Assembly: GCA_964017185.1 (NCBI GenBank) | Contig: OZ024883.1 | Span: 40,478,395 to 40,542,394 of the forward strand | DNA: 64,000 nucleotides | DNA from: Rugalucina vietnamica | Taxonomy: Eukaryota; Mollusca; Bivalvia; Lucinida; Lucinidae | Direction of reading: 5' to 3' | In this document: positions 5,801 through 64,000 of the stretch, in pieces | Layout of the letters: each line of letters starts with the position of its first letter | Numbering within the stretch: the first letter of the stretch is position 1 | The notes under the pieces: generated by a model | Database searches by the model: none | What the model saw: the letters and a program-made list of their open reading frames with translations, nothing else | Told to the model about the DNA's origin: nothing | Made by a program: the position numbers and the translations under genes

Positions 5801-6019
5801 TGTCAATGCAACTGTTGATTTTCTTTTTTATCCAATGTCCAAAGAATTTTGCTGTTGTGATATGCCTCAGTTACAACGTAAGCCACAAATACCAACAGTC
5901 CTTGAAGAAAATGGGGAATCAAAATAACACACCTATCTGAACATGTTGGTGGGTTCAACTTGGTTGCTCTAATGCTTTACTTCCACTGCCTAAAGTTGAT
6001 GCCGTAAGTAATACACTTG

Positions 6020-9000
6020 ATAGTTCGTCTCTAACTAATGAGAAAGACCATCATTATTTCTTGAATAGTGCTGATGTTTGTTGGTGAGTTCTTTGATGGC
6101 TGACTAGGCCAATTCTGGCTCTAAACTGTCGGTTGCAAGTAGAGCAAGTCAATGTCATAGAGTCTGATGGTGGCACATTTGTTTTGGCTTTGCGCTCTCT
6201 TCGCTTTCTTTCAGCTTCACAGATTCTCTTCTTTTCATAAAGAGCTGCTCCTTTGTTGATGAGACCTCGCCACTTTGATCGCTCCTGTGCAGTCTGTTCC
6301 CAGGACCCCATTGGTATTTCGAAATCCTTCAGAGAGGTTTTGAGGGTGTCTTTGTAGCGTTTCTTCTGGCCACCTTGAGAGCGCTTTCCCTCCTGTAGTT
6401 CTCCATAGAAAACTTTCTTTGGAAGTCGCGCATCAGGCATTCTTATAACATGGCCAGTCCATCTTAGCTGTGCTAGCTTTAAGACTGTATGCATGCTTTG
6501 CATCCCTGCTTTCGTCAGGACCTCTGTGTCTGGAATCTTGTCCTGCCACTTGATTTTTAACAACTTTCTCAAACAGCTTAAGTGGAAATGGTTTAGTCTC
6601 TTTGCATGGCGTTGGTATACTGTCCAGGTCTCACATGCATACAAGGGGGTTGGCAGTACCACAGCCTTGTAGACTTTCAGCTTGGTGTCAAGCTTGATTC
6701 CATTTCGCTCCCAGACATTTGCACGGAGTCGTCCGAATGCCACACTAGCCTTTGCAATTCTGGCAGTGATCTCATCATCAATATGCACTGTTCTGGAGAG
6801 AGTGCTTCCCAGGTAGGTGAACTTGTCAACAACTTTCAGTTTTTGCCCATTCACAGTGATGGTTGGTTCATTATATGGCTTTCCGGGCGCTGGTTGGTGT
6901 ACAACCTCTGTCTTTTTTGTGCTGATTGTGAGATCATAGTTATCACATGACTGTGAGACTTGATCCATGGCTCTTTGCATTTTTGCCTCTGTGCTGGCAT
7001 TCTTATCCATATCATCTGCATAGAGGAGCTCATCTAGCACATCAGTCTGGACCTTAGTTTTGGCTTGCAACCTTCTGAGGTTGAATATGTTGCCATCAAA
7101 ACGGTACCTGATTGGAAAACCAGTGTCACTGTCCTGAAAAGCATCCATAAGCATGGCAGAAAACATCATGCTGAACAGTGTTGGTGCCAGAACACAGCCT
7201 TGTTTGACCCCATTTGTTACTTCAAATGGTTCAGAGAACTCTCCATCATTTTGCACACGTGCCTGCATGCCATCATGAAACTGCCGCACCATTGCTATGA
7301 ATCTGGGTGGACAGCCAAACTTGGCCATGATTTTCCAGAGTCCATCACGACTAACAGTGTCAAAAGCTTTGGTGAGGTCAACAAACGTCATGTATAGATC
7401 TACATTCTGTTCTTGGCATTTCTCCTGAAGCTGTCTTGCTGTGAATATCATGTCTATTGTCCCTCTGTCTTTTCTGAATCCACATTGACTTTCTGGGATA
7501 AGTCCCGTCTGATCAAGATGAACATTCAGACGATTCAACAGAATTTTTGCAAGTATCTTCCCAGCAATTGATAGGAGGGAGATGCCTCTGTGATTGTCAC
7601 AGACTTGAGGATTTCCTTTCCGCTTGTATAGGTGGATTATGGATGCATCCTTAAATTCTTGTGGGATAGCCTCCTTTCTCCGCATACAGTGAAACAACTC
7701 TGTCAGTTTCTCTGCCATGGGTAGCCCCCCAGCCTTGTAAACTTCAGCAGGAATTGCATCTGCACCTGGGGCTTTGCCAGATGATAGTTGTTGAACTGCT
7801 TTTCTTGTTTCCGTAACGGTAGGAAATTCATCTAACAGAACATTGCACTCTATCTGTGGAAGTCTGTCGATTGCATCCTCATTGATGCTTGATGGTCGAT
7901 TAAGCACACTATTGAAGTGTTCTGCCCACCTCTCCAAGATAGCTTCTTTATCTGTGAGAAGAGTGTTTCCATCTGCACTGAGCAATGTGGTGGCTCCAGA
8001 ACTCTTTGGACCATAAATGGTTTTCAGTGCATCATGAAATTTCTTCATGTCCTTTCTATCCGCAAAAGACTGAATTTCTTCTGTTTTCTTCCTCAGCCAG
8101 GAATCTTGCATGTCCCTAAGCTTGGTCTGGACTGTCTTACAAATGTTGCTGTAGGCTGCTTTCTTTGATACTGAGCTAGTATCATCTTGATGTGCCTTGT
8201 GCAATCGGTGCTTTTCTTCAAGAAGCCTCTGAATTTCGTCATCATTCTCATCAAACCAGTCTTGATGTTTGCGAGATGGATGGCCTAAGGTGCTTGCAGC
8301 TGAAGAAAGAACTGTTTTATGGAAAACTGTCCAGTTTTCTTCTGGGTCCTCTGAACTGAGATTCATTGCATCCAGTTGGTTGCAAATGTCTGTTAAGAAA
8401 TCTTGTCTCATGCTGTCTTTATTCAGCTTTGAGACATCCAGTCTCTTAGGAGCTTTCTTGCCTTGAGGTCGCCTCGCAGGCTGTATTCTTAGGTTGAGTT
8501 TGCTGACAACCAGTCTATGATCTGTCCAGCAGTCTGCACCACACATAGTCTTTGTCACTTTAACATCCTGCCTGTCTGTTCTCCGCACAATGACATAGTC
8601 TATGAGATGCCAGTGTTTGGAACGGGGATGCATCCAGGATGTTTTGTTCCTATTAGGTAGACGGAAGACTGTGTTGGTGATTAGAAGGTCATGTTCAGCA
8701 CACTTCCTGAGAAGCAAGAGACCATTGCTGTTGCACTTTCCAACCCCTTCTGGACCTATAACTCCTTCCCAGGTCTGGTGGTCTGTACCCACTCTGGCAT
8801 TAAAGTCGCCAAGAAGGATAAGCTTGTCTGTGCGGGGTGTTGCAGAAATAACATTGTCTAGGTCATCATAGAACTTGTCCTTGACCTCATCTGGATTGGT
8901 CATTGTGGGTGCATAAGCACTGACAATAGTTGCATGTTTATTGCCTGACAGAGGAAGTCTCAATGTCATTAGACGGTCATTAATGCCTTTTGGCAACCCT

Positions 9001-9600
9001 GACAGCTTACCAACAAGTTCTGTTTTGATGGCAAAGCCAACTCCTGCTTCACGCCTCTCTTCACTTTTGCGTCCACTCCAGAAGAAGTTGTATCCAGCAC
9101 CAACTTCTTTGATCTCCCCAACATCTGCGAACCGAGTCTCACTCAATGCAGCTATCTGTATATCATACCTCCCAAGTTCTCTGCCCACAAGGGCCGTTCT
9201 ACGCTGTGGTCTATCTGACCCAGCATTGTCCATTAAAGTACGCACATTCCATGCGCCAATCCGTAAGGGAATTACTCTAGCTTTTTTCTTTGTATTTCGA
9301 CCGCTTAAGGGGATCCCCGCTGATCGCGGTTAACCAGCCAGGGGGTTTGAAGCAGGCAATTGTTTAGGGCACCTTTTCTAGCCCCTTCCCCATGCTACGG
9401 GGGTGAGCAGTGCGGTCCTAAATAGGTCTGCTCAGTCGCTCAGCCGACTGCCGAATTCTGCTTACTGCTTCTCCTCACAGAAAGCGACCATTAGAACTGA
9501 GCCGCCTGTGTGCAGGTCTGCAACTACAGCTCCCAGTGTGTCCTACACCTGCTGCTTCGCCACTCGCCCATCGCCACAGGACTTTGTAGGTATGTGGGTG
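6020..9600 (-). mobile_element. LINE-A copy 1: APE-type non-LTR retrotransposon, near full length
   Basis: A complete endonuclease plus reverse transcriptase frame (6054-9245) is followed by only about 35 bp of 3' UTR, ending at about 6020 in GACGAACTATCA without a poly(A) tail. The 5' side contains a conserved-looking non-coding stretch (about 9330-9560). A second copy at 61.1-62.8 kb is nearly identical over their shared 1.7 kb, which points to recent activity. The 5' boundary is uncertain. Confidence 0.85.
6054..9245 (-). CDS. LINE-A endonuclease / reverse transcriptase polyprotein
   Basis: A single frame of about 1,063 codons. The N-terminus is an APE-type endonuclease (exonuclease-endonuclease-phosphatase fold): L-S-E-T-R-F near residue 34, L-L-G-D-F-N-A-R-V near 144, and T-D-H-R-L-V near 242. 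The middle is a reverse transcriptase: G-K-A-P-G-A-D near 490, G-F-R-K-D-R-G-T near 590, F-V-D-L-T-K-A-F-D (motif A), G-V-K-Q-G-C-V-L-A-P (motif B), and L-L-Y-A-D-D-M (motif C, both catalytic Asp present). The C-terminus has a C-x2-C-x12-H-x3-H finger. The open frame continues upstream to 9329 (includes G-A-W-N-V-R-T, the usual start of this endonuclease) but with no ATG. The first in-frame ATG is at 9233, so the true start or 5' end may be altered. It looks catalytically intact. Clade is not fixed: the very short 3' UTR is RTE-like. Confidence 0.88.
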   Translation of the reverse strand: MRTLMDNAGSDRPQRRTALVGRELGRYDIQIAALSETRFADVGEIKEVGAGYNFFWSGRKSEERREAGVGFAIKTELVGKLSGLPKGINDRLMTLRLPLSGNKHATIVSAYAPTMTNPDEVKDKFYDDLDNVISATPRTDKLILLGDFNARVGTDHQTWEGVIGPEGVGKCNSNGLLLLRKCAEHDLLITNTVFRLPNRNKTSWMHPRSKHWHLIDYVIVRRTDRQDVKVTKTMCGADCWTDHRLVVSKLNLRIQPARRPQGKKAPKRLDVSKLNKDSMRQDFLTDICNQLDAMNLSSEDPEENWTVFHKTVLSSAASTLGHPSRKHQDWFDENDDEIQRLLEEKHRLHKAHQDDTSSVSKKAAYSNICKTVQTKLRDMQDSWLRKKTEEIQSFADRKDMKKFHDALKTIYGPKSSGATTLLSADGNTLLTDKEAILERWAEHFNSVLNRPSSINEDAIDRLPQIECNVLLDEFPTVTETRKAVQQLSSGKAPGADAIPAEVYKAGGLPMAEKLTELFHCMRRKEAIPQEFKDASIIHLYKRKGNPQVCDNHRGISLLSIAGKILAKILLNRLNVHLDQTGLIPESQCGFRKDRGTIDMIFTARQLQEKCQEQNVDLYMTFVDLTKAFDTVSRDGLWKIMAKFGCPPRFIAMVRQFHDGMQARVQNDGEFSEPFEVTNGVKQGCVLAPTLFSMMFSAMLMDAFQDSDTGFPIRYRFDGNIFNLRRLQAKTKVQTDVLDELLYADDMDKNASTEAKMQRAMDQVSQSCDNYDLTISTKKTEVVHQPAPGKPYNEPTITVNGQKLKVVDKFTYLGSTLSRTVHIDDEITARIAKASVAFGRLRANVWERNGIKLDTKLKVYKAVVLPTPLYACETWTVYQRHAKRLNHFHLSCLRKLLKIKWQDKIPDTEVLTKAGMQSMHTVLKLAQLRWTGHVIRMPDARLPKKVFYGELQEGKRSQGGQKKRYKDTLKTSLKDFEIPMGSWEQTAQERSKWRGLINKGAALYEKKRICEAERKRRERKAKTNVPPSDSMTLTCSTCNRQFRARIGLVSHQRTHQQTSALFKK

Positions 9601-14752: not shown

Positions 14753-16045
14753 TTATTCGGCAGTAATCCTTGATACGTATCTGTCAAGATTTTTATATAA
14801 TGCACTCTGTAAACTTAAAAATCTAGGGTCATCAGCCCGACTGTAGACTGACATGTAGTTAGTTAGGTAGGCTATACCTAGTTTATTTGAAGGGTCTGCA
14901 ATTACAATTTGTCCACCATATCCAACACCTCCGAAACATTCTTCACCATAAGGGTTTTTCAATATAGGCACACCCCTCCCCCAACGAGGGTTTATCGATG
15001 GAAAAATCTGGCATTCTCCTGTAGTCATTTGGGTGGACAACTGTTTGATTACGCCTGGCGACAGTAACTGTTTCCCTTTGTGATTGCCTCCACTTACTAG
15101 GACGCCAAACAATTTAGCTAAACCTCTTGCTGTCCCTGTTCCCATCGATGATGACATAGTTATTTCCCTTAGTTCTGGATTGTTGTAGCATAGTGGGCAA
15201 TCAACTAACTCTCTAAACACCTCCGTTGACCGTTTGGTAAGATTACTTCGAAGATCGAAGAGTATTTTGATATATCGTACATTGGAAATTATGTCCCAAA
15301 GAGTCCTTAGTGATGAAAATTTATGAAGTCTAGCTGTTCGATAATATTGTTTACGAGGCAGATTCATATATAAATCAATGTCGAATGGTTTAACAACTTC
15401 TTCTTGGAATATTTTAGCAGTGTCCCTTCCCTGTGGGTCTATTTTCTGTATAAGTCTATCAAGGTACAAGCCATATGTGTATATATGATAACCATGTTTC
15501 TGTCCAGCTGGCCAAGATGTTTCTTGGCTTTCCAGAATTGTCTCTATCATTCTTGGGTTTGTTTTCAAATCACGTAAATTAATCTGCTTATCCAATGCAG
15601 GCAGTCCTGCTTGATGACTGAGAAGCATTTCTATCGTTATGTTTTCCTTATTTTTCTGTCCAAACCCTGGCCAAAATTTTGCTACTGGGTCATCATATCG
15701 GGCGAAGCCGCGATCCACCATTATTCCCATTAATATGCCCATTAGGCTCTTTGTAATAGAAAACGCAATAGTCACGGTTTCATTTCGCCATCTTCGCTTG
15801 GCTTCCCTGTCTGCATACCCTGCCCACATGTCAATAATCGGTTTCCCGTCATAGAAGACCGCAAAAGCAGCCCCCATTTCTTTGCCGCTTTCCATATTTT
15901 TCCTGAACGTTTCAGCTACTTCCATGAATTCCGGTTGAAAATTTCCCTCCACGATTGGGGGTAAATTGGGCTCGAACATCGTCGGAACATAAACGAAGGC
16001 AATAGAAGTGAAGGCAACCGCAACTGCCAGTTTTAATGCGCTCAT
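14753..16045 (-). CDS. beta-lactamase-like serine hydrolase (LACTB/EstB-type), single exon
   Basis: The frame is 430 codons with a hydrophobic N-terminal segment (residues 4-21) that could be a signal peptide or membrane anchor. The serine beta-lactamase fold is recognisable: catalytic S96-x-x-K99 in A-F-S-I-T-K, the L-L-S-H-Q-A-G-L-P block near 141-149, a Tyr candidate at 186 in H-G-Y-H-I-Y-T-Y-G, and a C-terminal G-G-V-G-Y-G-G-Q plus A-D-P-S-N block standing for the third active-site strand. Animal members of this family (such as the nematode lact genes) act as esterases or peptidases; the substrate is unknown here. The start ATG at 16045 has A at -3. AATAAA overlaps the stop codon. The lack of introns is unlike the neighbouring genes and could reflect a retrocopy, or simply a one-exon gene. 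All key residues appear intact. Confidence 0.88.
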   Translation of the reverse strand: MSALKLAVAVAFTSIAFVYVPTMFEPNLPPIVEGNFQPEFMEVAETFRKNMESGKEMGAAFAVFYDGKPIIDMWAGYADREAKRRWRNETVTIAFSITKSLMGILMGIMVDRGFARYDDPVAKFWPGFGQKNKENITIEMLLSHQAGLPALDKQINLRDLKTNPRMIETILESQETSWPAGQKHGYHIYTYGLYLDRLIQKIDPQGRDTAKIFQEEVVKPFDIDLYMNLPRKQYYRTARLHKFSSLRTLWDIISNVRYIKILFDLRSNLTKRSTEVFRELVDCPLCYNNPELREITMSSSMGTGTARGLAKLFGVLVSGGNHKGKQLLSPGVIKQLSTQMTTGECQIFPSINPRWGRGVPILKNPYGEECFGGVGYGGQIVIADPSNKLGIAYLTNYMSVYSRADDPRFLSLQSALYKNLDRYVSRITAE

Positions 16046-23924: not shown

Positions 23925-24904
23925 CAATCTATTGTGGTTACCATGGAAACCATGTATATTAAATAGAAATAAACCTAAATGATTTGTTTTTGGGTGGTCA
24001 CTAACATATCCAGAGAGTATGAACCCACCCAATCTGTGTCTATGCGTGCTAAGTACGATTTAGATGGTTTCTTTTACCATTGTAATCACGAACGCAGATA
24101 ATATAATATCTAGAAAACAGTAACGTTAGGTCGTTTCATCAAATGTTTTATGACATCATCTTTTCCTAAGTTCAATCTGAGCCAAATGTACTATGAGATA
24201 TCACGTCTTAGGATGAAACATGCTTAGGATGAAACATGCTAATAATATAGACTCACTAGTGCAATCAAAGTAATAATTAAATGTGTTTTAGATAAGATAA
24301 ATGATATTATTTATCAAACTTTTGCTGATAAAGTTCACGTGAACATAGATTGTACTACATAACATGTAAATTAGCGATACGAGATCGAATCCCTATAGCG
24401 TCAAGTACGTTTTTTTTTTTCCAAATAATTTATTAATTTACATTATCTATATTTTATTGATATTTTCTAGTTCTTACTTTTTTCAACGGATCATTCTGCA
24501 AATCTAAAGGATAACTCATCATCAAGTTCATCACCAAAAGGTACAAGTAGGCAATGATCGGGAAAAAACGCAATCATCAAGTGCTATGCAATTTTTATTC
24601 TATTTTGTTCAAGCTCTGCTAACGATAAATAAAACCGTTATATTTAGTTAATTGTATATATAGGTCTTTTAAAGATAAATTATATGACATGGATCTACTT
24701 CTAGCTCGTGTAAATTCTCGAAATTGCAGCACAATGGTCTGGCTTTCGTTGCCTGATGAGAGTTCATTACCCCTAAATTGCGCAATATAGCCCATACTAT
24801 TTCCCTTTCCAAAGGATCAAAAAAAGTAACAAGTAGGCAAAGATCAGGAAAAGGCGCAATCAGAAACCTTTATCAGGAATCAGAACCTTTATATTTTATT
24901 TGTA

Positions 24905-41009: not shown

Positions 41010-41100
41010 CTTTCCCAACCCGGCCCTAGTTTTTGCAGTGGGAATTTCTTTCTGACTGCACTTTTCCTGATCATTGCCTACTTGTACCTCTTTTCAAGTA
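41010..41100 (+). mobile_element. Naiad 3' tail fragment
   Basis: GCAGTGGGAATTTCTTTCTG..TTTTCCTGATCATTGCCTAC..TGTACCTCTTTT matches the extreme 3' end of the Naiad element at 52.71-52.78 kb, inverted. Confidence 0.75.
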
Positions 41101-43684: not shown

Positions 43685-43797
43685 GAAAAAAGTTGGAAAT
43701 ACCCAGTTTTTTTCCCATCCCTCGGTTTATGGAGTGGGAATTTCTTTATGATTGCCCCATTTCCTGGTCATTGCCTATTTGTACTTTTTTTCTAGTA
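43685..43797 (+). mobile_element. Naiad 3' tail fragment
   Basis: TTTTTTTCCCATCCCTCGGT..ATGGAGTGGGAATTTCTTTA..CATTGCCTATTTGTACTTTT matches the Naiad 3' end. Confidence 0.75.
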
Positions 43798-46769: not shown

Positions 46770-47234
46770 CATTTCGTAGGTATTCCAACTATTCTGATTC
46801 CGTTTATTGGCACAAAGAATCATTTTAGTTTTTACGATTTCTTGTAAAGTTAGGAAAGATAAAAGTCCGAACTCAATTGTGACGGTGACCCAACGACCGC
46901 AACCCATTTCTAACCCACCCATTTTTGTACACAGGTACCAGTTGATGGAAATCCTACCTTCAACCTCTCACCCCAACCCTGTTGTACCCCACCTATCTCT
47001 AAATGTACATATAAATAAAAGGGATTAGCATTTTTTCACCTTAATATAGATTTGGTGTCCAACATAAAACGCCCCATCTGATCAGAAACAGAATAGTTTA
47101 CTGGCGAAATGTCAAATTGACAATACCTCACCAGGATGGTAGATGAATAGGTCAATGGCAGATTTATAGAATTTTAAAAAGAGATTTGTGGACAATTCTA
47201 AAAAAGAAGCGGAATGTATTATGTTAAGGTAAAA

Positions 47235-47400
47235 GTACTCAATGATCAGGACAAGACGCAATCGGAAAGAGATTCCCACTCCAAAAACCAAGGTGGGGAA
47301 AACTAAAATAACAACCAGGTAATTATGAAATGAAAACATATCGTAAGCCGAATTAGCAGCTATTTTGTCCAATAGGTGGCCACTCAGTTGCCACTTAGTT
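47235..47400 (-). mobile_element. Naiad 3' tail fragment
   Basis: GATTCCCACTCCAAAAACCA, CGTAAGCCGAATTAGCAGCT and CAATAGGTGGCCACTCAGTT match the 3' UTR end of the Naiad element in the same orientation. Confidence 0.8.
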
Positions 47401-50400: not shown

Positions 50401-50640
50401 TGAGGCATCCAGACGCAGGAAGCATAAATTCAAATCTGTTCATCGGTACCAGCACCATTCCAATAACGTGTTGATGCTCTCGACATGGATGATAGCCTTG
50501 TTGAACCGCATTTTTTAATTTCACATTTGTGTAAAATAGGTACCAACAAGGCACATTTTGGAAGTGTGACATTTGTGTATGTTAAATTTCGATGGCGGGG
50601 TGGAGGCGGTGAAATTAATACTAAAATTTCAAAAGTCTTC
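47400..50640. other. intergenic with SINE remnants; no confident gene
   Basis: About 47635-47830 and 49690-49880 resemble degraded SINEs (CAAGCAAGACACTAAGCTTC; CCGACATGACTAAAATTGTT, GTTAAACCACAACA). A possible terminal exon starts after TTTTCAG at 49506 and reaches AATAAA at about 49638, and a possible exon (M-S-E-M-F-R-D-I-K-K) ends near 50445; both are too weak to call. About 48355-48410 holds a duplicated GGTGGCCATCTTGAATT. Confidence 0.4.
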
Positions 50641-50922
50641 AAGATTGCTCCAAGGCTATACTTCTGTTGTGGTTCTAACTGTTTGGTGTTTTGGAGTCGA
50701 ATTTTTGTGCTGTTTGAGCCCTATGTACGTTTTCATATTTTAGTTCAGTTCGGGTAACTGAGTGGCCGCCTATTGGGGAATAGCTGCTCGCTCGGCTTAC
50801 GACATGTTTTCATGGTATAAGTACCCAAGTGTCATTTTAGTTTTTCCCACCCCTCGGTTTATGGAGTGGGAATTTCTTTCTGATTGTGCCATTTCCTGAT
50901 CATTGCCTATTTGTACTTTTTG
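50640..50922 (+). mobile_element. detached Naiad 3' UTR copy
   Basis: GCTCCAAGGCTATACTTCTG through GTGGCCGCCTATTGGGGAAT, GCTCGGCTTACGACATGTTT and the end CATTGCCTATTTGTACTTTT follow the order of the Naiad 3' UTR. Confidence 0.82.
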
Positions 50923-50924
50923 TG

Positions 50925-52215
50925 CCCCAAACTTTGAAAAGTTGGAAGGGCATATTGATTTCGGCTTGTCTGTCTGTGTGTCTGTGTGTCTGTCTGTGTG
51001 TGTGTTAACTTTTGAATGGTGAATGCTAGGGTTTTGAAATTTCATATGCACATTCCTCATGAAAAAATAGTTGACCCGTATTTTTTTTTCATGTCCGAGT
51101 TACGCCCCTTTTCTGAGTTATGTCCCTTTGAAAACAAAAGTTGAAAATCTTGTGTGCAAGATATCTCAAAAAATATTTAAGCTAGAGCCTTCATATTTGG
51201 TACACTTGTTGTAGATGAACTGATTAACTTTTGAGAACCGACACATGTTTACAAAAATACAGAATTTTGAAATTTTGATTGATTTTTCCACTTTTCGGTG
51301 ACTTTTGAGAACTTTCCGTCAATTTTTAACACAATAACAGAATTTTGAAATTTTGATTGATTTTTCAACTTTTCGGTGAAATTTAAAACTTTTGAACATA
51401 TACACATTCCTCATGATAAAATAGTTGACCCGTATTTTTTTTGTATGGCCAAGTTATGCCCCTTTTTTGAGTTATGTCCCTTTGAAGACAAAATTTGAAA
51501 ATCTTGTGTGCAAGATATCTCAAAAAGTATTTAAGCTAGAGCCTTCATATTTGGTACACTTGTTGGGGCTGAGAAGTAGATGACCTGATAAACTTTTGAG
51601 AACTTTCTGTCAAATTTTCAACAAAAATACGGAATTTTGAAATTTTGATTGATTTTTCCACTTTTCGGTGAAATTTAAAACTTTGAACGGTGAATGCTAG
51701 GGTTTTGAAATTTCATATACACATTCCTTATGATAAAATAGTTGAACCGTATTTTTTGTATGGCCAAGTTATGCCCCTTTTGTGAGTTATGTCCCTTTGA
51801 AAACAAAATTTGAAAATCTTGTGTGCAAGATATCTCAAAAAGTATTTAAGCTAGAGCCTTCATAGTTGGTACACTTGTTGGGGCTGAGAAGTAGATGAAC
51901 TGATTAACTTTTGAGAACTTTCCGTCACATGTTTACAAAAATACAGAATTTTGAAATTTTGATTGATTTTTCCACTTTTCGGTGAAATTTAAAACCTTTG
52001 AACGGTCAGTTATAGGGTTTTGAAATTTCATATACAGATTCCTCATGAAAAAATAGTTGGCCTGTATTTCTTTGAAAAGAAATTTTGAAAATCTTGTGTG
52101 CAAGATATCTCAAAACGTATTTGAGCTAGCTAGCTAGAGCCTTCATATTTGGTATGCTGGTTGGGGCTGAGAAGAAGATCACCTGATTAACGTTTGAGGA
52201 CTCTCTGTCAAATTT
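50925..52215. repeat. diverged tandem repeat of about 270-350 bp, four units
   Basis: GAAAATCTTGTGTGCAAGAT recurs at about 51143, 51496, 51811 and 52086, each followed by ATCTCAAAA.GTATTTAAGC, AGAGCCTTCATATTTGGTA and TTTTGAGAAC. A CTGTCTGTGTG simple repeat is at 50968-51003. No coding sequence. Confidence 0.85.
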
Positions 52216-52711
52216 TGACAAAATTACTCAATTTTTAAATTTTTACTTCATTTCTAACTCGCATGCAAAAAAGCTTACATTCTGTTTCTGTTTAAATTTG
52301 ACTGCATTCGAATGAAATAAATGAATCATACAAACTGCCAGTTTAGGCACAAGCATAGTGTTTTACAAATATGCATTTCTAGTTTCTGTTTCTGGCGGTA
52401 CGAATTTATATAACTGGTATTAATTTTTTTTTCAGATGTGTAGAATTGACACAAATCGGTACTAAATCTTCTAACACACGAAAACACGTTCTTGAACCAT
52501 ATTTTTTATATTTCGCAAAGTTCTTATGTGAATTATTGGTACCAAATCCTCCCAGCCGGCGAAGAATTAGTAACGAATTTGTATGTAACGGATTTAATTC
52601 CATTTCACACGCATGTGAGATAGGCGCATATAATCAAATTTCATGTACTATGCAGAAAAGGAATGCCAAAAAAGGCCCTGGGCAAAGAGCAGCTGATATC
52701 ATTGTGAAAAG

Positions 52712-53326
52712 GTACAAGTAGACAAAGATCAGGAAAAGGCGCAATCAGAAAAAGATTCCCACTCCAAAAACCGAGGTGGGAAAAAACCAAACTAACAATC
52801 AGGTACTTATACCATGAAACATATCGTAAGCCGAATGAGCAGCTATTTTCCCAATAGGTGGCCACTCAGTTACCTTAACTTAACTAAAAATATGAAAACA
52901 TACATAAGGCGCCAACAGCACAAAAAATTTTAAACACCAAGACATAAAACAAAAAGAACCACTACAGAAGTATCGACTTGGAACGATCAGTAACACAAAG
53001 TTACTGGCGGGCTTAAACCGGTTTTACAGGTACCTAACCTCACCCTCAGCTTCTGCAGTGGTTCACAACATTTAGTTAGTTCTTCGGTCCTCGTGGTGAA
53101 TCTCTAACTAGTCAATGAATCATCAAGAACAAACAAATAAATCATGATAAACATCCTGATGAATCAAAAACCAGGACTCACAGATTGAGTAAGCTGCCCG
53201 ACGATGGAGATCCCTGGGCGCCGAATAACCTACTAACTCCGGAGCAAAAGAAAAACACCAGTTGGACCCCGGTGGGCCAAGCAACAGACAAGAAGCTCCG
53301 GCCCCAACCAACTAAAATGAATAGCT
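52712..53326 (-). promoter_or_regulatory. Naiad 3' UTR (expected place of a SECIS element)
   Basis: The stretch from the TAA to the element end is strongly conserved in the detached copies at 36.8 kb and 50.6 kb. It contains several possible stems, such as CCGGAGC (53294-53300) with GCTCCGG (53237-53243), and ATGA or GTGA starts, but I could not assemble a convincing SECIS core (TGA..AA..GA) by eye. Confidence 0.35.
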
Positions 53327-56300
53327 TTAAGTCGGGGCCATCATAGAGTCTGACGCCCGACCCACCGGCGTGCAATTAAAGAAGGCAGCATAGTCATCAA
53401 CCATGATTGGGTTAAAAACTAAGCATGCAGACTGTCGCATAACATTCAAGTTATAACCTATACGTCTGTAACGTGATATGATTTTTCCGAACTGAAGAGA
53501 AAAATCATTTATTCCTTTAAGTTTCTTTAATTTGTAAACCAAGTCACCATAAAATTCAGGTTCCGAAAGGCCCTCACTTAAAAGTGTCTTTAACCCAACA
53601 TTATATTTGGAAATCAATTCATAGTGTCTACGATAAAATTTAGAAAAGGTTTTTCGAAGTTTATGATACCGATAGCCCTGTTGGAGAAGTTTTGCCGTTA
53701 AACATTTATTTCGAGCGTTGAAGTCTGTAACATGATTTCAGACTCTAGCAAACCTAATAAGTTGCGAAATGTATACACCATAAGAAGCACGACGAGGAAC
53801 GTCACCATCCAAAAAAGGAAAATTTACTATATCAAAATCAAAGTCATCGCGCTTATCATAAATTTTAGAAGAAACAAATCCATTTGCAACAGAAAGATGT
53901 AGATCTAAAAAGGGGGCTTCGGTATCTGAGATATTAGCTTTGTTCAACTGAAGTTCAGGTGGATAAATTTGATTGACCATACCTTCAAAATAAGGGTTGT
54001 CAATGTTCAAAAGGTCATCGAGGTACCTAGATGTGGAATTAAAAGCCTCGATAACATCAGCTTGATTATCATGGTTAAGAGAATCCATGAAATCTCTTTC
54101 GTAGCAGTATAAAAATAAATCAGCTACGAGAGGTGCGCAATTTGTACCCATCGGAATTCCAACAATTTGTCTGTATAACTTGGTCCCAAATCTAATATAA
54201 ATATTATCAAGGAGATAGGATAAGGCGTCGCACACATTCTGACATGACCAAAGGGTATACCGACTTTGGTCAGAGGAAGTGAAAAAAGCCTTTCTGTCAT
54301 TACATGCCAAATAAAGTGAACCATAGTTTTTTAATGCCCTTTTGAAGGTCCACTCTATCAAATCCAGAAGTTTTTCTTTAATTAGATTATGTGGTAATGT
54401 TGTATACAGAGTAGAAAAATCATATGTGGACAAGCTTGTCGCACGGAACCCTCTACCCTTCAACTTACTGAGCACCTCACCAGAATTTTTTATTGACCAA
54501 AACCAATTTTTATTTGAAGTTTCATACACTGTCTCACAGTATCTTATAACATGAGATTTGATAGCAGTAAGACAAGAAGTTAATAATTTAGAAAGTTCAG
54601 TGGTAGTACAAGAGCTAGAATTTGCAATAAATCTAGCTTTGTATGGTCTTTTGTGAAGCTTAGGTAACCAATACATCGTAGGAAGTTTGTCTTGGCCTTC
54701 ATTGACACAAACAGAAAACTTAACAGGTAAATCGTTTAAGTGGGCATTTACTACAGACACCTCATCAGTATCTGTCTCCAGATAAGCCCTGGTACCATCA
54801 AGCTCCTGTTTTAAGGTGTTAACGTAGTGAAGTCTACAAACGACAACAACATTGTTTGCGGCTTTATCTGCCGGAACCAAGACATACTTTCTATGAAATT
54901 CTTGGATACCCTGCTTCAAATGCCTAAATGACGATTTGGGTTTAGGAGGTAAAAGATTAGTATTTTGTGAATAAAACTTAATACGTTTATCCACGATAGT
55001 GAAGATACTTCTTTTCCATTCTTTAAGAGCATTATCCTCAACACCCTCTCGTTTACACCATCGATTACCGAAATCATTTAATGCAGATGCAATCTCCTCT
55101 CTACATTTGTCGAAATTAATGTAGGAAGGGAATCTATATTTCGGACCTTTAGAAACAATTTTGCGAATTCTAGAATCCGAAATTATTTTTAAATTTCCAG
55201 TAACTATATGTCCAGCTGGTTGATAAACATATTTTGAATCTTTACAATCTCAAGACTTAGGAGTATTAGCATGGATATCAAGATCAGAAACAAGTTTATT
55301 GAAATTAAAAATAGTATTTCTGATTGGTTTGTTATATTTGTAACAAATAATAGGAGGTTCTGAATTTTGGAAGTAGGTAGGTATAGACTGTATCACTGAT
55401 TTATCCTGGAATATGCTTGGTAAATCAATAAAGTCAATTCCTTTATTGATGAAAGGAATTTTAATAAAACTTCTAATGTGATTAGATTCGGAATCGATAA
55501 ATGGACGAAGAGCATGCTGAGTATAACATCTTGTTAACAGTGCAGCGTCATACATTTGATGATTTCTATCGTAAAATCTATTAGCCTCTGTGTCCAGGGA
55601 ACGTAATGCAGCAATAGGTAGAGAACTAAGATAAGACAGCATTGGATGTCGACCGTGAATCCTTAGTTTAACAGCTAAATCATTAAGGGAAATGTTCAAT
55701 TTCAATGCAGCGCACCGTTTACGTTTGTCATTACCCCTTTTCCGTATACCATGAGATCTAGATTTACGTTTACGAGACTCTGAAAGTGTAAGTACATCAA
55801 AATCGGGCATTTTGGAAATATTGCCTTCATGATAAATGTTGTCGTTGAATCCCAGTGGAAAGGGTGTTTGCAGTAATTTTATCCATTTAAGTTCAGTTTC
55901 AAATCGTTTAATATTTTTGAATCTAACTGAAGAATTTTCATCATATGAGATTTTCTCCACTGGTTGAACTTTAACATCATTGGGAGAATGACCAGTGCGC
56001 TTAAAATGCTGGTACAGAAAGGTATCATTATTTTTGGGCTTTCTGATTCTACGATAGTGCTCACCAAATCGTTTTTGCAAAGTTCGACAAGTTTGTCCAA
56101 CATATTGCATCCTACAATTGTTTGTATTTCAAGTAAGAACATATACAAGATCCATTGATTTTCAGTCTAAATCAGAATCATTAACCACTGAAAATGTCCT
56201 ACCATTCACAGATGAAGTGATAGTAGTCTTAGAGCATAAATGATTGCAACAGTTGCACTTCTTGGCATTGCACTTAGAAATACTAGGGTACATTCCAGGT

Positions 56301-56587
56301 CTCTTGAACGGATTAATATATTTACGTAAAATTGGTGATTTGAGTGGAGATAACCTAATCTGAAGATTATTACGAAACATATTAGAATTAGAAGCTCCGT
56401 GTAGATTAACAGTAGATGCCGAAAATAAATTAAGAGGTGTCACCCTAACAGTAGGTAATAAATTTTGAAAATTGTTAGTTGAATGAGGAATCCGTACAGT
56501 AGACGCGGCATGCAACCTAAGGGGAGTTAATGTAATTCCTAATCTTTTTGTGATAGTCATAGTTGGGAGTATTGTGTTGATACACAT
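53327..56587 (-). CDS. Naiad GIY-YIG endonuclease / reverse transcriptase with four in-frame TGA codons (candidate selenoprotein)
   Basis: From ATG at 56587 to TAA at 53327 the frame is 1,086 codons with no frameshift, TAA or TAG. It is interrupted only by TGA at codons 142 (56162-56164), 153 (56129-56131), 446 (55250-55252) and 950 (53738-53740). Order: Cys motif C-N-A-K-K-C-N-C-C-N-H near 110; GIY-YIG domain (L-V-Y-V-L-T..Y-V-G-Q-T, R-F-G-E-H, F-E-T-E-L near 150-240); the CxC linker, here TGA-Asp-Cys followed by Y-Q-P-A-G-H; reverse transcriptase with P-A-D-K-A-A, D-F-S-T-L-Y (motif A), G-I-P-M-G-T-N-C-A-P-L (motif B) and R-Y-L-D-D-L-L (motif C). The TGAs fall where relatives have Cys: before and after the V-Y-V-L-T strand, the first Cys of CxC, and R-V-Cys after motif E. 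Naiads of clams are known to encode several selenocysteines. Another TGA lies four codons before the ATG. No SECIS element could be confirmed by eye. Confidence 0.85.
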
Positions 56588-56599
56588 TTGTATTTGTCA

Positions 56600-57119
56600 A
56601 TTTGTATCACATAAGTGTAAAGCTGCCATCCTATCAAAGGAACCCATGGAGAAATTAAGAGATGATAATAAGGGTAGAGATGATGCCTCTAAACTGTATG
56701 TCAGAGAGGACCTTACTAAGAAAAGAGGCACTATCCTGTACAAAGCCAGGCAGCTTAAGAAAGCGAGTCTTATCAAGGACGCATTTTCTCGCGACGGTAT
56801 CATAACAATTCGTATGGCTACATCAAAGCCATCTGGACATGATATGTACTATCGGATTACCAGTGAGGATGAACTTAAAGCGTTCTGTAATGATAAGAAG
56901 TTAGACGTTAATGATGAGTGCCTGCCAAAAAAGACTGTAAAGCCTAAAACACTTGTGTTTTCTATGTCAGCTGGTGGCAGTGCCGCCCATGGTTCTGCTG
57001 CCCATCATGCTGGCACCCCTATGGACTCACAGGAAGAATCAGACCTCAACCCGGATGCGCAGGCATTCCAGCCTGCTAACAACTCTGATGTTGGAACTGT
57101 AAACGAACCCGCTTCATAA
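56600..57119 (+). pseudogene. LINE ORF1 C-terminal remnant, cut by the Naiad insertion
   Basis: About 173 codons: H-K-C-K-A-A-I-L-S-K, a Lys-rich coiled stretch, L-Y-K-A-R-Q-L-K-K, then R-D-G-I-I-T-I-R-M..Y-R-I-T-S-E-D-E-L and a Ser/Ala/His-rich tail ending N-E-P-A-S and TAA. The block R-D-G-I-I-x-I-R followed by I-T-S-E-D-E-L is typical of the end of ORF1 proteins of CR1/L2-like LINEs in invertebrates (inference). The 5' part was not found on the other side of the Naiad element, and it is unclear whether it belonged to LINE-B, whose ORF2 begins 3 kb further on. Confidence 0.55.
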
Positions 57120-57340
57120 ACATTTTGATATATTGAAATGTAAAAAAAACTCTCCGAAAAGTGTATACTTGTATATAAGAAACAAACATACATATGGAAT
57201 CATATAGTTTATTAAAACTCATGACATTCGACAGAAATCACAGTCAGTTTAAGCTAACATTTTCATGATGACCCTTACATGCAATAACCTAGTGCAAAAT
57301 CAGAATTTCTAGTGTCTGATGAATGCTTCCTGATTGTATG

Positions 57341-57534
57341 CAGTTCAACCTCATTATAAAACGCCTCATTACAGTGCAGTTCTCAATGCAACATTGTCAT
57401 TTTATGGCTCCAAAATGATTATCTTGCTATATTGACTGTTGTAAATAACCGCATTATTATACAGCCTTATTTTTTACAGTAGCATGGTCGGGTTTTACAT
57501 ATCCTGTAATTGGCATTATAATGAGGTTGACCTC
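57341..57534. mobile_element. pogo/Tigger-like MITE
   Basis: Begins CAGTTCAACCTCATTATAAA and ends GGCATTATAATGAGGTTGACCTC (inverse). It is a relative of the element at 31217-31403. The exact ends and the TA duplication are not clear. Confidence 0.6.
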
Positions 57535-60120
57535 TTCATACAGTATAAAATACTACTATCTATAGCCATTATGAAACAATGAAATTCATACCATATGATA
57601 CTCAATAAGAGCTATAATCAGTACCAATGAAATTTCATTCCAAGAAATGATTTTCCAATATCTAAATTGCCTATTGCTTTATTTTATATAAGTAGGAAAG
57701 ATTTAGAAAACAGCAAAAAATCACAAAACCAATAGCCACCAGATAGTAGATGCCTCATTTCTTTTAAAACTTGCATGTGTATCATAACTAGGTACTGATA
57801 TATGTATATATGATTATCTAGAAATGACACCAGAATATGGTTACTGATATGCATTAGTATACTTTTGCAATTAAAAGCAAATCTCCCTACATCTAGTATT
57901 ATTCAAATTCAGAGACAGTTACAGTCTTGACACTTATAAAACTTTTTATATGTTTACTATCATATGATAAATACTGCAATTTGCAAACACCTATTCTTCA
58001 TGATGATAGAATGTTTTGCCATTTCTCTATACATTTACATGTTATAAATCAATCTTTAGTGAGAATATCTGTGTTAAATAGGATTTTCATGCTCACGTTG
58101 GCAAAAACACAAAATTTCCCATAGACACCTAAACTCGAAAATTCTAAATCACCAGAAAAATAATAGGTGCTAAGCTGGTTTTATTCTGAAAATCAGTATA
58201 AAAACTCCACTGCATAGTTTACTAAAAACAGCATTAATTAATGATGAGCATGAAAGTTGTACTGCTCAATTTACATCATAAAAATAGCACTTCAAACAAT
58301 GACATGGCTCATGTGACCAAATAAAAATATCTCTGAATGAGCATGTTAATAGTACAAATGTTTGACCCTTGTGAGCATGAAAATTGAGACTATCCTAATT
58401 GTTAGAATAGTATGGTTGGAATGAAATGAGCATGACAAATATTGTACCACTAACTGTAAACTTTTACTACCATGAAAATATGATACTGTTCCGTGACAAT
58501 ACAATGGCTTGAATTTGCTTCAATTGAATAAGCATGACAATTTTACCACTACCTATAAAAATGCCAAAGAAAGCACCTAAATCAATATACTGATTGAACT
58601 TAAAAGTGAGACTATTACTAAATTATTAATGTTGTGTTGTCAAAGCAGCAAAATTCAATGGCCTGATTTATGAGCATGAAAATTGTTGTGCTTATTCTAT
58701 CTATTGCTATATCTTTAATTCTCTTATACGGAGTAAGAGTGTAAACTCAGACTACTCTAATTGTCATGATAGCATTACCTGAATTGTATGAGCATGAAGA
58801 TTGTTCTACTAGCTATGTTTATGTTATTGAAATAGCACTTTTAAATCATTGACTTGTATAATTTGTCTTTAATGAGCATCAAACAATGACTGTTTATTGT
58901 ATTATGTTGTTGAAGTAGCAAAAATAAATGACCCGATAATCTGAGCATGGAAATTGTTCTGAATGTTATGAAATTCTGAATACATGACTTTACTGAATAG
59001 CTCAACTCAAGTGAATATTATACCGGAGGTAATGTTATTATTGTCACTATTGTGTTAGCATTTTCGTTAATGACCTAATTCTTTTGAGCATAAAAATATT
59101 TTTTCCCAATTGCTTCAGTTATTGAGAGAAAAAATCAATGGGTTCAAATTTGTAAGCATGCAAATTTCTGTGTTTGTTATCACTGTTATAAGATTGTGAG
59201 CTAAATGAGCATGAAAATTGTACAGCTACTAAAGAAATATTTACAAAATAGCACTTTTAACAAATGACTAATGAGCATAAATATATTTCTGCTTGTTATA
59301 TAATATTACTGAAATAGTATAAGTCATTGAAATAGTATCGAATCTATTATTGAAATAGCATTTATATTCATGACTTGACCTTTTGTTGAAAAGTTAAACT
59401 AGCAGAATGTAAGAAATAAGAAAGCACAAGTATTCTACTCATTAATTTTAAAAAAGTAGAATCATTTTATACTGTGTTCTTTTGATCCACATTGAATCTC
59501 CTATTTTATCCAAATATGACATTTCTCCATATAATCCATATATGACACACATTTCCGAATAATCCATGTATAAGAAACACATTTCCGAATATTTTACATA
59601 TCTATGTATTTGAAATATATGATGTAAAAGTAATCATAGCCATATCACAAGGCAATATCCACCCATAATGCACCATCAAAAAGAGAAACACGACCGAACA
59701 CTGCTCTCCACCACTCTTTTTGTTGATTCACAGGTCTTGTGATGTCTGATGTCTAAGATCGGAGCCTGAAAAAATAAATAACGAGTCTAAAATCTTAAAG
59801 TTTCATCTCCTCCTTGACTTTATTTTATAAAAACATGCTACTGAATCTGATTGTGATTTTGTGCCACTTATTATTACATGCAAGGATTACTTGCACTTCC
59901 TTAGTATCATGTTTTGACTTTGTTTTCTTTTGTTCTTTTGCTTGTACATGTATCTTGTAGTTATGTATATCTTTCTATTTATCTTTATTGTACTGACAGA
60001 TAATACTTGTGCTCCTTTCCAACTGACTCATTCTCATGCCAAAATGCTAAGTATCAACAGAACTTCTGAAATACTATCTGGTCACCATTCAAAACTTATC
60101 CATTACCTATTTAACATTCA
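57535..60120. repeat. AT-rich intergenic stretch with a recurring GAGCATGAAAATTG motif
   Basis: Between about 58240 and 59290 the motif GAGCATGAAAATTGT or close variants recurs at least a dozen times at irregular intervals of 53-146 bp (for example 58243, 58373, 58671, 58788, 58942, 59205). It is often preceded by AATGAC..TAAT and followed by CT-rich short stretches. It looks like a heavily decayed tandem repeat. No gene was found in this 2.5 kb. Confidence 0.55.
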
Positions 60121-61108
60121 ATGACATCGACAAGGCGCGATAATACAACACTCAATGGTGACCATGTGATCATAAGAAAACGTAAAAATATTAGTCAGTC
60201 AAATGTCTCAACCTCTTCAATAAATGCTTCTCAAACTGCAGCAGAGGTTACACATAATAACCCTCAACTAAATAACCTATCTAGCATGAAAATTGCCCAT
60301 CTGAACATAAATGGATTAAGAAACAAGGTTGATTTACTTAGTGTTGAGCTATCTGAATATGATATAATCTGTGTTTCAGAGACCAAATTGAATAATCTTG
60401 TTGAAACAGCAAAACTTAAAATTGATGGCTTTCATGATCCAATTCGCAGAGACAGGCAGTATAACAATGGTGGTGGACTGCTTGTTTATATTAAAAACAA
60501 CATCCACTTTAAACGGCGCCCTGATATTGAAAATCAATACATTGAAAATATGTGGATCCAAGTCTGCACTCTAAACAAACAATTTTTGATGGGCTTATTT
60601 TACAGGCCACCTGGAAGCACTGTGGACTACTGGGAATCATTTGAAAGCTGCCTTGAAACAGCATCAGATCAAAATCTTGACATGATAATAATGGGAGACT
60701 TCAACCATGACTTAATGATTCAAAACAATTTAACCAAACTAGAAAGAATAATATGTAAATTCGATATTGAAAATGTGTTTACTGAGCCAACTAGAATTAC
60801 AGATACTACCCAAACATGCCTTGATCTCGTCCTAACAAACCATACCTCAATAATTGAAAACACTGATATACTGGCCCCCTTTTGTAGTGACCATTGCACC
60901 ATTACTGCAGACATCACATTCAAAACCTACAAAGAAAAAACATACAAAACAAAATTCTGGAAATATGAAGAAGCAGATAATGAAGCTATAGAAAACAAAG
61001 AGAATCGCACTGATTGGTCATATATCAATAACTGTAATAATATAGATGAAATAAATGAAATTTTTGCTAAATTTATAATTGACACTGCTAATCAATTTAT
61101 TCCCAGTG
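60121..61108 (+). CDS. LINE-B ORF2, endonuclease part
   Basis: Starts at ATG 60121 with a polar N-terminal stretch of about 55 residues, then an APE-type endonuclease: I-A-H-L-N-I-N-G-L-R-N-K near 58, V-S-E-T-K-L near 89, I-M-G-D-F-N-H-D near 190, and C-S-D-H-C-T-I near 255. This is the L-N-I-N-G-L-R/S-E-T-K type found in CR1/L2/Jockey-like LINEs and differs from the A-W-N-V-R-T type of LINE-A. The frame is then cut by the LINE-A insertion, and 15 meaningless codons precede a stop at 61155. Confidence 0.85.
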
Positions 61109-61109
61109 T

Positions 61110-62814
61110 GATAGTTCGTCTCTCACTAATGAGAAAGACCATCATTATTTCTTGAATAGTGCTGATGTGTGTTGGTGAGTTCTTTAATGGCTGACTAGGC
61201 CAATTCTGGCTCTAAACTGTCGGTTGCAAGTAGAGCAAGTCAATGTCATAGAGTCTGATGGTGGCACATTTGTTTTGGCTTTGCGCTCTCTTCGCTTTCT
61301 TTCAGCTTCACAGATTCTCTTCTTTTCATAAAGAGCTGCTCCTTTGTTGATGAGACCTCGCCACTTTGATCGCTCCTGTGCAGTCTGTTCCCAGGACCCC
61401 ATTGGTATTTCGAAATCCTTCAGAGAGGCTTTGAGGGTGTCTTTGTAGCATTTCTTCTGGCCACCTTGAGAGCGCTTTCCCTCCTGTAGTTCTCCATAGA
61501 AAACTTTCTTTGGAAGTCGCGCATCAGGCATTCTTATAACATGGCCAGTCCATCTTAGCTGTGCTAGCTTTAAGACTGTATGCATGCTTTGCATCCCTGC
61601 TTTCGTCAGGACCTCTGTGTCTGGAATCTTGTCCTGCCACTTGATTTTTAACAACTTTCTCAAACAGCTTAAGTGGAAATGGTTAAGTCTTTTTGCATGG
61701 CGTTGGTATACTGTCCAGGTCTCACATGCATACAAGAGGATTGGCAGTACCACAGCCTTGTAGACTTTCAGCTTGGTGTCAAGCTTGATTCCATTTCGCT
61801 CCCAGACATTTGCACGGAGTCGTCCGAATGCCATACTAGCCTTTGCAATTCTGGCAGTGATCTCATCATCAATATGCACTGCTCTGGAGAGAGTGCTTCC
61901 CAGGTAGGTGAACTTGTCAACAACTTTCAGTTTTTGCCCATTCACAGTGATGGTTGGTTCATTATATGGCTTTCCGGGCGCTGGTTGGTGTACAACCTCT
62001 GTCTTTTTTGTGCTGATTGTGAGATCATAGTTATCACATGACTGTGAGACTTGATCCATGGCTCTTTGCATTTTTGCCTCTGTGCTGGCATTCTTATCCA
62101 TATCATCTGCATAGAGGAGCTCATCTAGCACATCAGTCTGGACCTTAGTTTTGGATTGCAACCTTCTGAGGTTGAATATGTTGCCATCAAAACGGTACCT
62201 GATTGGAAAACCAGTGTCACTGTCCTGAAAAGCATCCATAAGCATGGCAGAAAACATCATGCTGAACAGTGTTGGTGCCAGAACACAGCCTTGTTTGACC
62301 CCATTTGTTACTTCAAATGGTTCAGAGAACTCTCCATCATTTTGCACACGTGCCTGCATGCCATCATGAAACTGCCGCACCATTGCTATGAATCTGGGTG
62401 GACAGCCAAACTTGGCCATGATTTTCCAGAGTACATCACGACTAACAGTGTCAAAAGCTTTGGTGAGGTCAACAAACGTCATGTATAGATCTACATTCTG
62501 TTCTTGGCATTTCTCCTGAAGCTGTCTTGCTGTGAAGATCATGTCTATTGTCCCTCTGTCTTTTCTGAATCCACATTGACTTTCTGGGATAAGTCCCGTC
62601 TGATCAAGATGAACATTCAGACGATTCAACAGAATTTTTGCAAGTATCTTCCCAGCAATTGATAGGAGGGAGATGCCTCTGTGATTGTCACAGACTTGAG
62701 GATTTCCTTTCCGCTTGTATAGGTGGATTATGGATGCATCCTTAAATTCTTGTGGGATAGCCTCCTTTCTCCACATACAGTGAAACAACTCTGTCAGTTT
62801 CTCTGCCATGGGTA
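61110..62814 (-). mobile_element. LINE-A copy 2, 5'-truncated, nested in LINE-B
   Basis: Shares the 3' end GACGAACTATCA with copy 1 and matches it nearly base for base. It breaks off at the point equivalent to about 7717-7722 of copy 1 (CTCTGCCATGGGTA), inside the reverse transcriptase. It therefore lost the endonuclease and about half the element, the usual outcome of incomplete reverse transcription. No target duplication is visible beyond one or two bases. Confidence 0.9.
61184..62814 (-). pseudogene. truncated LINE-A reverse transcriptase
   Basis: The frame starts inside the reverse transcriptase (L-P-M-A-E-K-L-T-E-L) and contains motifs A (T-K-A-F-D), B (K-Q-G-C-V-L-A-P) and C (Y-A-D-D-M). 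It ends at 61184, where a CAA codon of copy 1 has become TAA within the C-terminal finger, just after V-S-H. A handful of substitutions separate it from copy 1. The codons upstream of 62814 are antisense LINE-B sequence. Confidence 0.88.
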
Positions 62815-64000
62815 AACTATACAAAGCGCCCCACTGACAAGCCATGGATGAATAATAACATAAGGAAGCAAATTAGACAAAGAGATAGACTCTTCAAAAA
62901 AGCTAAACTTAAAAAATCAGTTAACTACTTAAATAACTATAAAGATAAACGTAATGAGGTAATCACATCAATTCGAGAAGCTAAAGCAAACTATTTACAA
63001 AAATTAAAAGATACACTTTCAGATTCAAAAACCCCACCTAAACAATGGTATAAAATTGCTAATGAAATTTCAAGTCTTAAGAATAAAAGAAATCCCCCAC
63101 CACCCTTAAGAAATAATAATAATACAGTAGATATACACCCTTTCAATAAAGCCCAAACTCTAAATAAACATTTTGCTAACATTTCAAAGGTAGATAATCC
63201 TCCGCCCCTACCCGAGGAAGAACCAACCCCCCCATATGCTCTTGAAAGTATAACTGTTACTGAAAAAGATGTAAAAGACCAACTGCATGCATTAAAAACT
63301 TCCAAACCTGGTGGTCCGGATGAAATTTCTCCAAAACTTATAAAAGCACTAGGCAACTCATTGGCAAAACCCTTAATGCTACTTTTCAATAAATCACTTT
63401 CACTAGGACAGGTACCCCCAGACTGGAAAATGGCCAACATTTCAGCTATTTTCAAAGGCAAAGGTGACTCCTCAGATCCAACAAATTATAGACCTATTTC
63501 CATAACTAGTTGTATTGGTAAAATGCTTGAAAAAATAATTTTTAAATATCTGTATAATTACCTGGAAACCAATCAACTAATCACAAATTTTCAAAGTGGC
63601 TTTCGTCCAAAAGATTCCACAGTCAATCAACTCCTGGAAATATATCATAAAATAATAGAAAATTTAGACAAACAGAAAGAAATCAAATTCATATTTAGCG
63701 ACATAAGTAAAGCATTTGACAAGGTTTGGCATGACGGTCTCCTATTTAAGCTTAAAAAATATGGCATTACTAACAACTTATTATCTTGGTTCAAAAGCTA
63801 CTTGTCAAACAGAAAACAGCGTGTGATAACTGAGGGCTTTAAATCTAATTGGGAAAACACATTAGCTGGAGTTCCACAAGGCTCAGTGCTGGGTCCCTAC
63901 TTATTTCTTATTTATATCAATGACATTGTGAAAGATATTAATTGTAACATTCGACTCTTCGCTGAGGATACATCATTATTCACTGTTTTCGAAAACAACA
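62815..64000 (+). CDS. LINE-B ORF2, reverse transcriptase part (runs off the window)
   Basis: Open for about 395 codons to the window end: N-Y-T-K-R-P-T-D-K-P-W-M, then K-P-G-G-P-D-E-I-S-P-K, N-Y-R-P-I-S-I-T-S, G-F-R-P-K-D-S-T, S-D-I-S-K-A-F-D-K-V-W-H (motif A) and G-V-P-Q-G-S-V-L-G-P (motif B). Motif C reads F-A-E-D-T-S-L instead of the usual F-A-D-D: the first catalytic Asp is Glu (GAG at 63964-63966). That change should cripple polymerisation. The frame is otherwise clean, so the element is young or was recently disabled. Confidence 0.85.

Follow-up and report, generated by a model that had tools for sequence, protein, structure and literature searches.

A Naiad-type retroelement of the clam Rugalucina vietnamica with a predicted selenoprotein transposase and a selenocysteine insertion sequence at its stop codon

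Penelope-like elements use target-primed reverse transcription, in which the endonuclease nicks the target and the reverse transcriptase (RT) copies. These elements are known for forming tandem copies, and 5′ truncation also occurs in the canonical Penelope/Poseidon ones. Naiads, Penelope-like elements with selenocysteines (Sec) in clams and spiders, were reportedly described by Craig, Yushenova, Rodriguez and Arkhipova in Mol Biol Evol in 2021 (38:5005-5020). A canonical Penelope/Poseidon element, PAc of Anolis, combines an RT with a GIY-YIG endonuclease, forms tandem copies and has a hammerhead ribozyme (PMC11167929). As for the selenocysteine insertion sequence (SECIS), that of fowlpox glutathione peroxidase is placed in the coding region, while the cellular counterparts have theirs in the 3′ untranslated region (PMC8310308). 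We deal here with a locus that brings these themes together, in a 64-kb stretch of the genome of the lucinid clam Rugalucina vietnamica (contig OZ024883.1, 40478395-40542394), called the window in what follows. It is very probably a young, high-copy, Naiad-type Penelope-like element, the transposase of which would be a selenoprotein with UGA142, UGA153 and UGA446 read by means of a 3′ SECIS. An earlier note on this DNA had proposed a selenoprotein retrotransposase with four Sec. The selenoprotein reading stands, with three sites; the fourth, TGA950, does not.

Translation of the minus strand of the window at 53327-56587 gives 1086 codons followed by TAA, with TGA at codons 142, 153, 446 and 950 and neither TAA nor TAG before the end, which reproduces the frame reported in that note. 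If TGA is read as Sec the frame is open as far as 56848 and takes in a fifth TGA, at 56599, that we rejected as part of the element, its position being outside, in the flank. The frame was aligned with 120 listed homologues of 218 matches. Cys counts were taken on the 103 of these classed as more distant, one of which, P0010, is actually 86% identical. All four TGAs lie on columns that are 82-100% Cys in the more distant relatives listed, as had been claimed (native numbers count from the native start, and sisters are copies in the same genome that reach the site, both treated below):

56162..56164, minus strand: TGA142 (native 133), a conserved Cys ahead of the GIY-YIG core, predicted Sec; Cys in 42/43 distant relatives, TGA in 23/23 sisters
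56129..56131, minus strand: TGA153 (native 144), first of the endonuclease Cys pair, predicted Sec; Cys in 45/45 distant relatives, TGA in 24/24 sisters
55250..55252, minus strand: TGA446 (native 437), first Cys of the CxC linker, predicted Sec; Cys in 100/101 distant relatives, TGA in 39/39 sisters
53738..53740, minus strand: TGA950 (native 941), a private TGC-to-TGA change at a Cys column; Cys in 79/96 distant relatives, TGC in 39/39 sisters

With a cut-off of 82% Cys or more, chosen after the four had been seen, the chance that all four TGAs fall on such columns is P = 3e-5 if, among the codons of this frame, TGAs arise only from those one step away, and 1.2e-8 if they arise from any codon. 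That TGA446 stands for the first Cys of the CxC linker is likewise borne out by the alignment: columns 446 and 448 are each 99% Cys, and the element has UGA-Asp-Cys there.

A SECIS is found at the very end of this frame, in a position that makes it part gene and part trailer:

53285..53352, minus strand: SECIS (Rfam SECIS_1), its AUGA formed by the codons of Met1082-Met1083, from the Rfam match and the fold z
53267..53371, minus strand: SECIS plus long outer stem, from the energy of a 101-nt hairpin
53327..53329, minus strand: TAA stop within the SECIS; TAA in 37/38 sisters reaching the site

The Rfam match scores 39.0 bits (gathering threshold 35, E 3.2e-5) and is the sole match of any Rfam family at gathering level in the window. 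Its structure comprises the AUGA core, an 11-bp helix, an AAA bulge below a small apical stem and a long outer stem. The folding z of the 68-nt SECIS part is -4.4; the longer hairpin, 101 nt at 53270-53370, reaches -56.2 kcal/mol (z -7.0), with an energy rank of 9 against 2556 windows. The 5′ arm codes for TPVGRASDSMMAPT, within the conserved C-terminus (...DSMMAPT), and the 3′ arm is untranslated; the core is contained in two successive ATG codons, and the TAA (53329-53327) overlaps the apical AAA motif. Among the listed homologues that have a C-terminus, many of them near-identical copies, all 42 retain Met1082 and 40 of them Met1083, as expected if the AUGA core has to stay. Fourteen substitutions are spread across the 107-nt SECIS region in 38 copies, too few for a pairing test. 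In one sister, L028, the stop reads GAA and the frame would continue into the SECIS. The earlier note had proposed to search for a SECIS at 53326-52700; one is present, but that range would miss it, as 53352-53285 begins in frame.

The protein has the composition of a Naiad, which upholds the assignment made earlier to a Naiad-type Penelope-like element: a GIY-YIG domain N-terminal to the RT, a short CxC linker and an RT of telomerase type.

55832..56158, minus strand: GIY-YIG endonuclease fold, about aa 144-252
55244..55252, minus strand: CxC linker, here predicted Sec-Asp-Cys, aa 446-448, from the alignment
53378..55249, minus strand: telomerase-like RT region after TGA446 (DFSTLYT, GIPMGTN, YLDD), from structure matches, motifs and purifying selection at aa 447-1070

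The top 17 Foldseek matches of the whole-protein model are telomerases (best E 9.6e-12, TM-score 0.28 on the query and 0.43 on the target), and a Pfam search of the whole frame gave nothing above the cut-off. Against what we take to be the definition of the CCHH zinc motif in the Naiad endonuclease, UGA153 holds the first position and the second Cys comes at 158, after a gap two residues longer; the His residues are present. No hammerhead ribozyme family was scored up to E 10 in 50500-58500, nor at gathering level in the window, the copy scanned being truncated and without a 351-nt 5′ part.

Sister copies were searched in the same genome (a 1.09-Gb assembly of 47 contigs) with a 1.5-kb query. 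From the 2571 first-look candidates that the search returned, 40 were taken on to scoring; the 39 sisters are every other full-length match among these 40 and, chosen by likeness to 54000-55500, they favour young copies. Codons were counted from the best blastn piece per copy only, and any copy that stopped short of a site was omitted from its count (16 for codon 142, 15 for codon 153, one for Met1082/Met1083 and the stop). Since codon 950 is TGC in every sister, three UGAs belong to the family and TGA950 is private to the window copy: the family trait is three predicted selenocysteines, at 142, 153 and 446. TGA950 results from a C-to-A change at 53738, one of 7 private differences of the window copy, and was rejected as a Sec site of the family. 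Checking the TGAs against sister copies, as had been advised, thus confirmed three of them and removed the fourth. Three of the 39 sisters (L018, L033 and L047) have one extra in-frame stop each. The marks by which a eukaryotic selenoprotein is recognized are accordingly distributed as follows: the SECIS is in sense orientation and downstream of the UGAs, the in-frame UGAs are aligned with Cys of homologues, and conservation of the UGA is seen in same-genome copies for 142, 153 and 446 and is lacking for 950.

Selection on the coding sequence can be read from the differences between copies. Of 141 distinct variants, 59 are synonymous when 34 are expected, and none of 2000 simulations went as high. 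Past TGA446 (aa 447-1070) 38 of 67 variants are synonymous against 17.5 expected (P < 1/4000), and new stops are absent. Therefore the RT downstream is translated and of use to the element, in copies every one of which has UGA446. The 17 full-length copies differ pairwise by 0.32% on average (range 0.03-0.57%). This youth bears on an argument of the earlier note, that decay should also have left frameshifts, TAA or TAG: their absence is a fact, but in a family so young it carries little weight.

The limits of the element and its native start also follow from the sisters:

52707..56583, minus strand: Naiad copy covering 3,877 nt of the 4,228-nt unit, from shared 5′ and 3′ ends of sisters and the tandem spacer
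53327..56560, minus strand: native frame, Met10 to TAA, 1077 codons with TGA read as Sec, from the upstream TAA and first ATG in 6 copies
52707..53326, minus strand: 3′ untranslated region, from the common 3′ end of the copies
56585..56587, minus strand: junction ATG (the earlier Met1), outside the element, from sister-copy comparison

In 21 of the 39 sisters the match starts exactly at the base equal to 56583, upstream of which these 21 copies have a common sequence absent from the window (70 nt shown for all 21, 215 nt for 6). The 6 full-length copies that were translated have an in-frame TAA upstream, and their next ATG is the Met10 of the window, at 56560. Met10 is therefore the native start, and Met1, from which the frame was first said to begin, arises at the truncation junction. 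At the other side, the 3′ ends of 32/39 copies agree with 52707 within 3 nt. Two sisters, L016 and L017, stand in tandem, head to tail, with the 351-nt 5′ segment as spacer, whence the 4,228-nt unit; the 3′ end of L045 is followed by the same 60 nt as in this tandem. The window copy is 5′-truncated, lacking these 351 nt of 5′ sequence, and has an intact 3′ end; no convincing repeat of its 3′ part was found upstream of the frame within the window. The element seems to split a plus-strand frame (52383-52709 and 56601-57119, ...GQRAADIIVK / FVSHKCKAAILSK...), which we take to resemble the ORF1-type protein of another retroelement. A Pfam search of the right half of this frame gave nothing, and 17 bases, at 56584-56600, cannot be assigned clearly to it or to the element. 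Shared copy ends, tandem copies and this apparently split frame are the grounds on which the Naiad family is considered recently mobile.

Protein homologues were compared as well. The queries aa 154-445 and aa 447-949 provided the best 120 of 1216 and the best 120 of 2888 matches, and 343 listed proteins were mapped, in which the codon behind the end or start of an open reading frame (ORF) is not visible. The listed homologues show an apparent stop at 446 and another at or near 153: 74 of the 343, 59-100% identical, are ORFs ending exactly before site 446 (aa 445), and 52 are ORFs starting at Met160, the next Met after TGA153. No ORF end at 949 was found among the matches listed. Site 950, in the 86 close proteins that align on either side of it, is Ser in 50, Cys in 30, others in 6 and Arg in none; a looser count has one Arg there, and one Arg also occurs at 950 among the 103 more distant relatives. 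Site 584 is Cys in 147/166 listed proteins and TGT in 39/39 sisters. It is followed two residues later, at 586, by the start of 14 of the 343 ORFs, as after a stop, which suggests a further Sec site in a sister subfamily (around P0313, with 4545 members, P0317 and P0335), at which the copies of this genome have Cys. No DNA relatives were found among viral contigs, genome contigs, plasmids and phages. Two Naiad pieces closely related to the window copy, P0299 and P0316, are on contigs filed as Candidatus Thiodiazotropha, symbionts of lucinid clams; they are likely host contamination of symbiont assemblies and so point to a bivalve host.

Among the rivals of the selenoprotein reading, the one that survives best states that the UGAs are read through in a generic way, as Trp or Arg, or that an internal start supplies the RT, with a SECIS that is decorative either way. 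We consider it improbable, in spite of a series of observations that weigh against Sec. Trp is found at 446 in 9/10 close proteins that read through (the tenth, P0236, has Ser) and at 584 in 13/64 close proteins, with Arg at 584 in one (P0282). Synonymous bias is not significant before TGA446 (4 against 3.8 expected for aa 11-153, 15 against 11.3 for aa 154-445), which leaves room for an RT translated on its own, starting internally. New stops are not clearly depleted (TAA/TAG 1 against 5.3 expected, TGA 2 against 1.9, joint P 0.06). Finally, because the copies are so alike, the constancy of TGA among sisters is weak evidence when taken alone: 0.28 TGA losses are expected among 141 variant events, and 39/39 TGA by itself proves little.

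Trp in sister copies had been named beforehand as an observation that would refute Sec; it is indeed seen in close proteins, yet the sister DNA of the same genome has TGA at 446. Most of the Trp at 446 and 584 likely comes from gene calls made with a code in which TGA is Trp, because the unrelated flanks of the 18 proteins concerned contain 3.93% Trp (16/407) against 1.48% (64/4338) in the other 223 close proteins (Fisher P 0.001), to be compared with 3.68% under table 4 and 1.48% under table 11 for the ORFs of the window. Trp as the true residue in general was rejected on the latter ground. The numbers behind this explanation are modest, and it fits poorly with P0145, P0184 and P0188, which pass 446 yet start at Met160, and with the fact that none of the listed close-group proteins reads through 142 or 153; these points too count against Sec. 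Three of the 18 (P0145, P0188 and P0263) are A-to-G hypermutated, and their Trp may be a real TGG. Two more points speak against this rival: the distant relatives listed have Cys, not Trp, at 446, and a gathering-strength SECIS beside the stop would be a coincidence. The A-to-G pattern is an observation in its own right: A-to-G makes up at least half of the differences from the nearest relative in 9 of the 244 close homologues with at least 15 differences (the 9 being P0263, P0145, P0266, P0342, P0268, P0185, P0188, P0311 and P0338). In P0263 it accounts for 104/114 differences, with none in reverse, while the median over all is 0.13. Such a pattern resembles the result of ADAR acting on Naiad RNA ahead of reverse transcription.

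Plain decay, in which the TGAs would be nonsense mutations of a dead copy, for example from CGA, is more doubtful still. The copy is 5′-truncated, and TGA950, private as it is, could be such a mutation; but no sister that reaches the three other codons has anything except TGA there, among the matches listed homologues with as little as 59% identity have an apparent stop at 446, the four TGAs occupy Cys columns, and a SECIS is there. No CGA was found at the sites in the 39 copies read, only TGA or, at 950, TGC, so that the CGA-to-TGA route is rejected, as the earlier note had anticipated. A host-wide reassigned code or stop reading can be dismissed as next to impossible, since no support for it was found in the window, where other long frames (1063, 553, 430 and 344 aa) are open under the normal code.

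Returning to the selenoprotein reading, host ribosomes and the Sec machinery of the host, guided by the SECIS with which the frame ends, would most likely place Sec at UGA142, UGA153 and UGA446, and read-through would yield endonuclease, Sec-x-Cys linker and telomerase-like RT in one chain. The endonuclease would then nick the target and the RT copy the element RNA at the nick, leaving 5′-truncated and head-to-tail copies. Sec at aa 153 and at aa 446 would each time stand in for one member of a Cys pair, and may serve metal binding or altered redox behaviour. A simple account of the pattern would be that the SECIS makes Cys-to-UGA changes nearly harmless, so that they accumulate and change place from one subfamily to another; TGA950, a fourth Cys codon turned from TGC to TGA and readable in principle as Sec since the SECIS is present, is either such a tolerated change or an ordinary nonsense mutation. 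One may go further, on a speculative and rather unlikely path, and see in the SECIS both a licence and a brake: welded to the stop, it would be melted by each ribosome that finishes the RT, while Cys codons drift to UGA almost freely. Full-length synthesis would then be self-limiting, and this would explain the three fixed Sec sites, 584 in the sister subfamily and 950 in a single copy. Be that as it may, a transposase with several Sec makes a mobile element dependent on the selenium pathway of its host. A family of very many near-identical copies, with three fixed UGAs, a mixture of Cys and predicted Sec among relatives and a SECIS joined to the stop, allows two questions to be tested directly. 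One is why Cys gives way to Sec in such elements, whether by gain of function or, as soon as a SECIS is present, by drift that is close to neutral. The other is whether termination disturbs Sec insertion, or the reverse, if a single RNA structure serves both.

The rest of the window contains relics of the same family, together with other retroelements and one gene-like frame:

50722-50921, 43708-43789 and 41029-41089, plus strand: short, strongly 5′-truncated fragments with the Naiad 3′ end
47226-47389, 24829-24866 and 24536-24576, minus strand: short, strongly 5′-truncated fragments with the Naiad 3′ end
14753-16045, minus strand: intact frame of 430 aa resembling serine beta-lactamases (Pfam PF00144, 180 bits), presumably LACTB-type, here in the genome of an animal
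6054-9245, minus strand: non-LTR (long terminal repeat) retrotransposon frame, endonuclease and/or RT domains
60121-61155, plus strand: non-LTR retrotransposon frame, endonuclease and/or RT domains
61184-62845, minus strand: non-LTR retrotransposon frame, endonuclease and/or RT domains

The segments 6018-6317 and 61109-61408 are 99% alike.

How, then, does this element compare with those already described? It resembles the clam and spider Naiads in its N-terminal GIY-YIG domain, CxC linker, telomerase-like RT, several UGAs, invertebrate host and high copy number. Naiad selenoproteins are already known from clams, and the window element adds one more; what is new is the layout with the stop inside the SECIS, which we do not claim to be unpublished, and the copy-specific Cys-to-UGA change. 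With the canonical Penelope/Poseidon elements it shares an RT associated with a GIY-YIG endonuclease, as well as tandem copies; the endonuclease is C-terminal in the former and N-terminal here, and PAc has the hammerhead ribozyme for which no family was scored in the scanned sequence of the window element (PMC11167929). Like that of fowlpox glutathione peroxidase, the SECIS overlaps coding sequence; unlike it, the SECIS of the window straddles the stop, with a coding 5′ arm, TAA in the apical motif and an untranslated 3′ arm, and the gene that harbours it belongs to a retroelement, not to a virus (PMC8310308).

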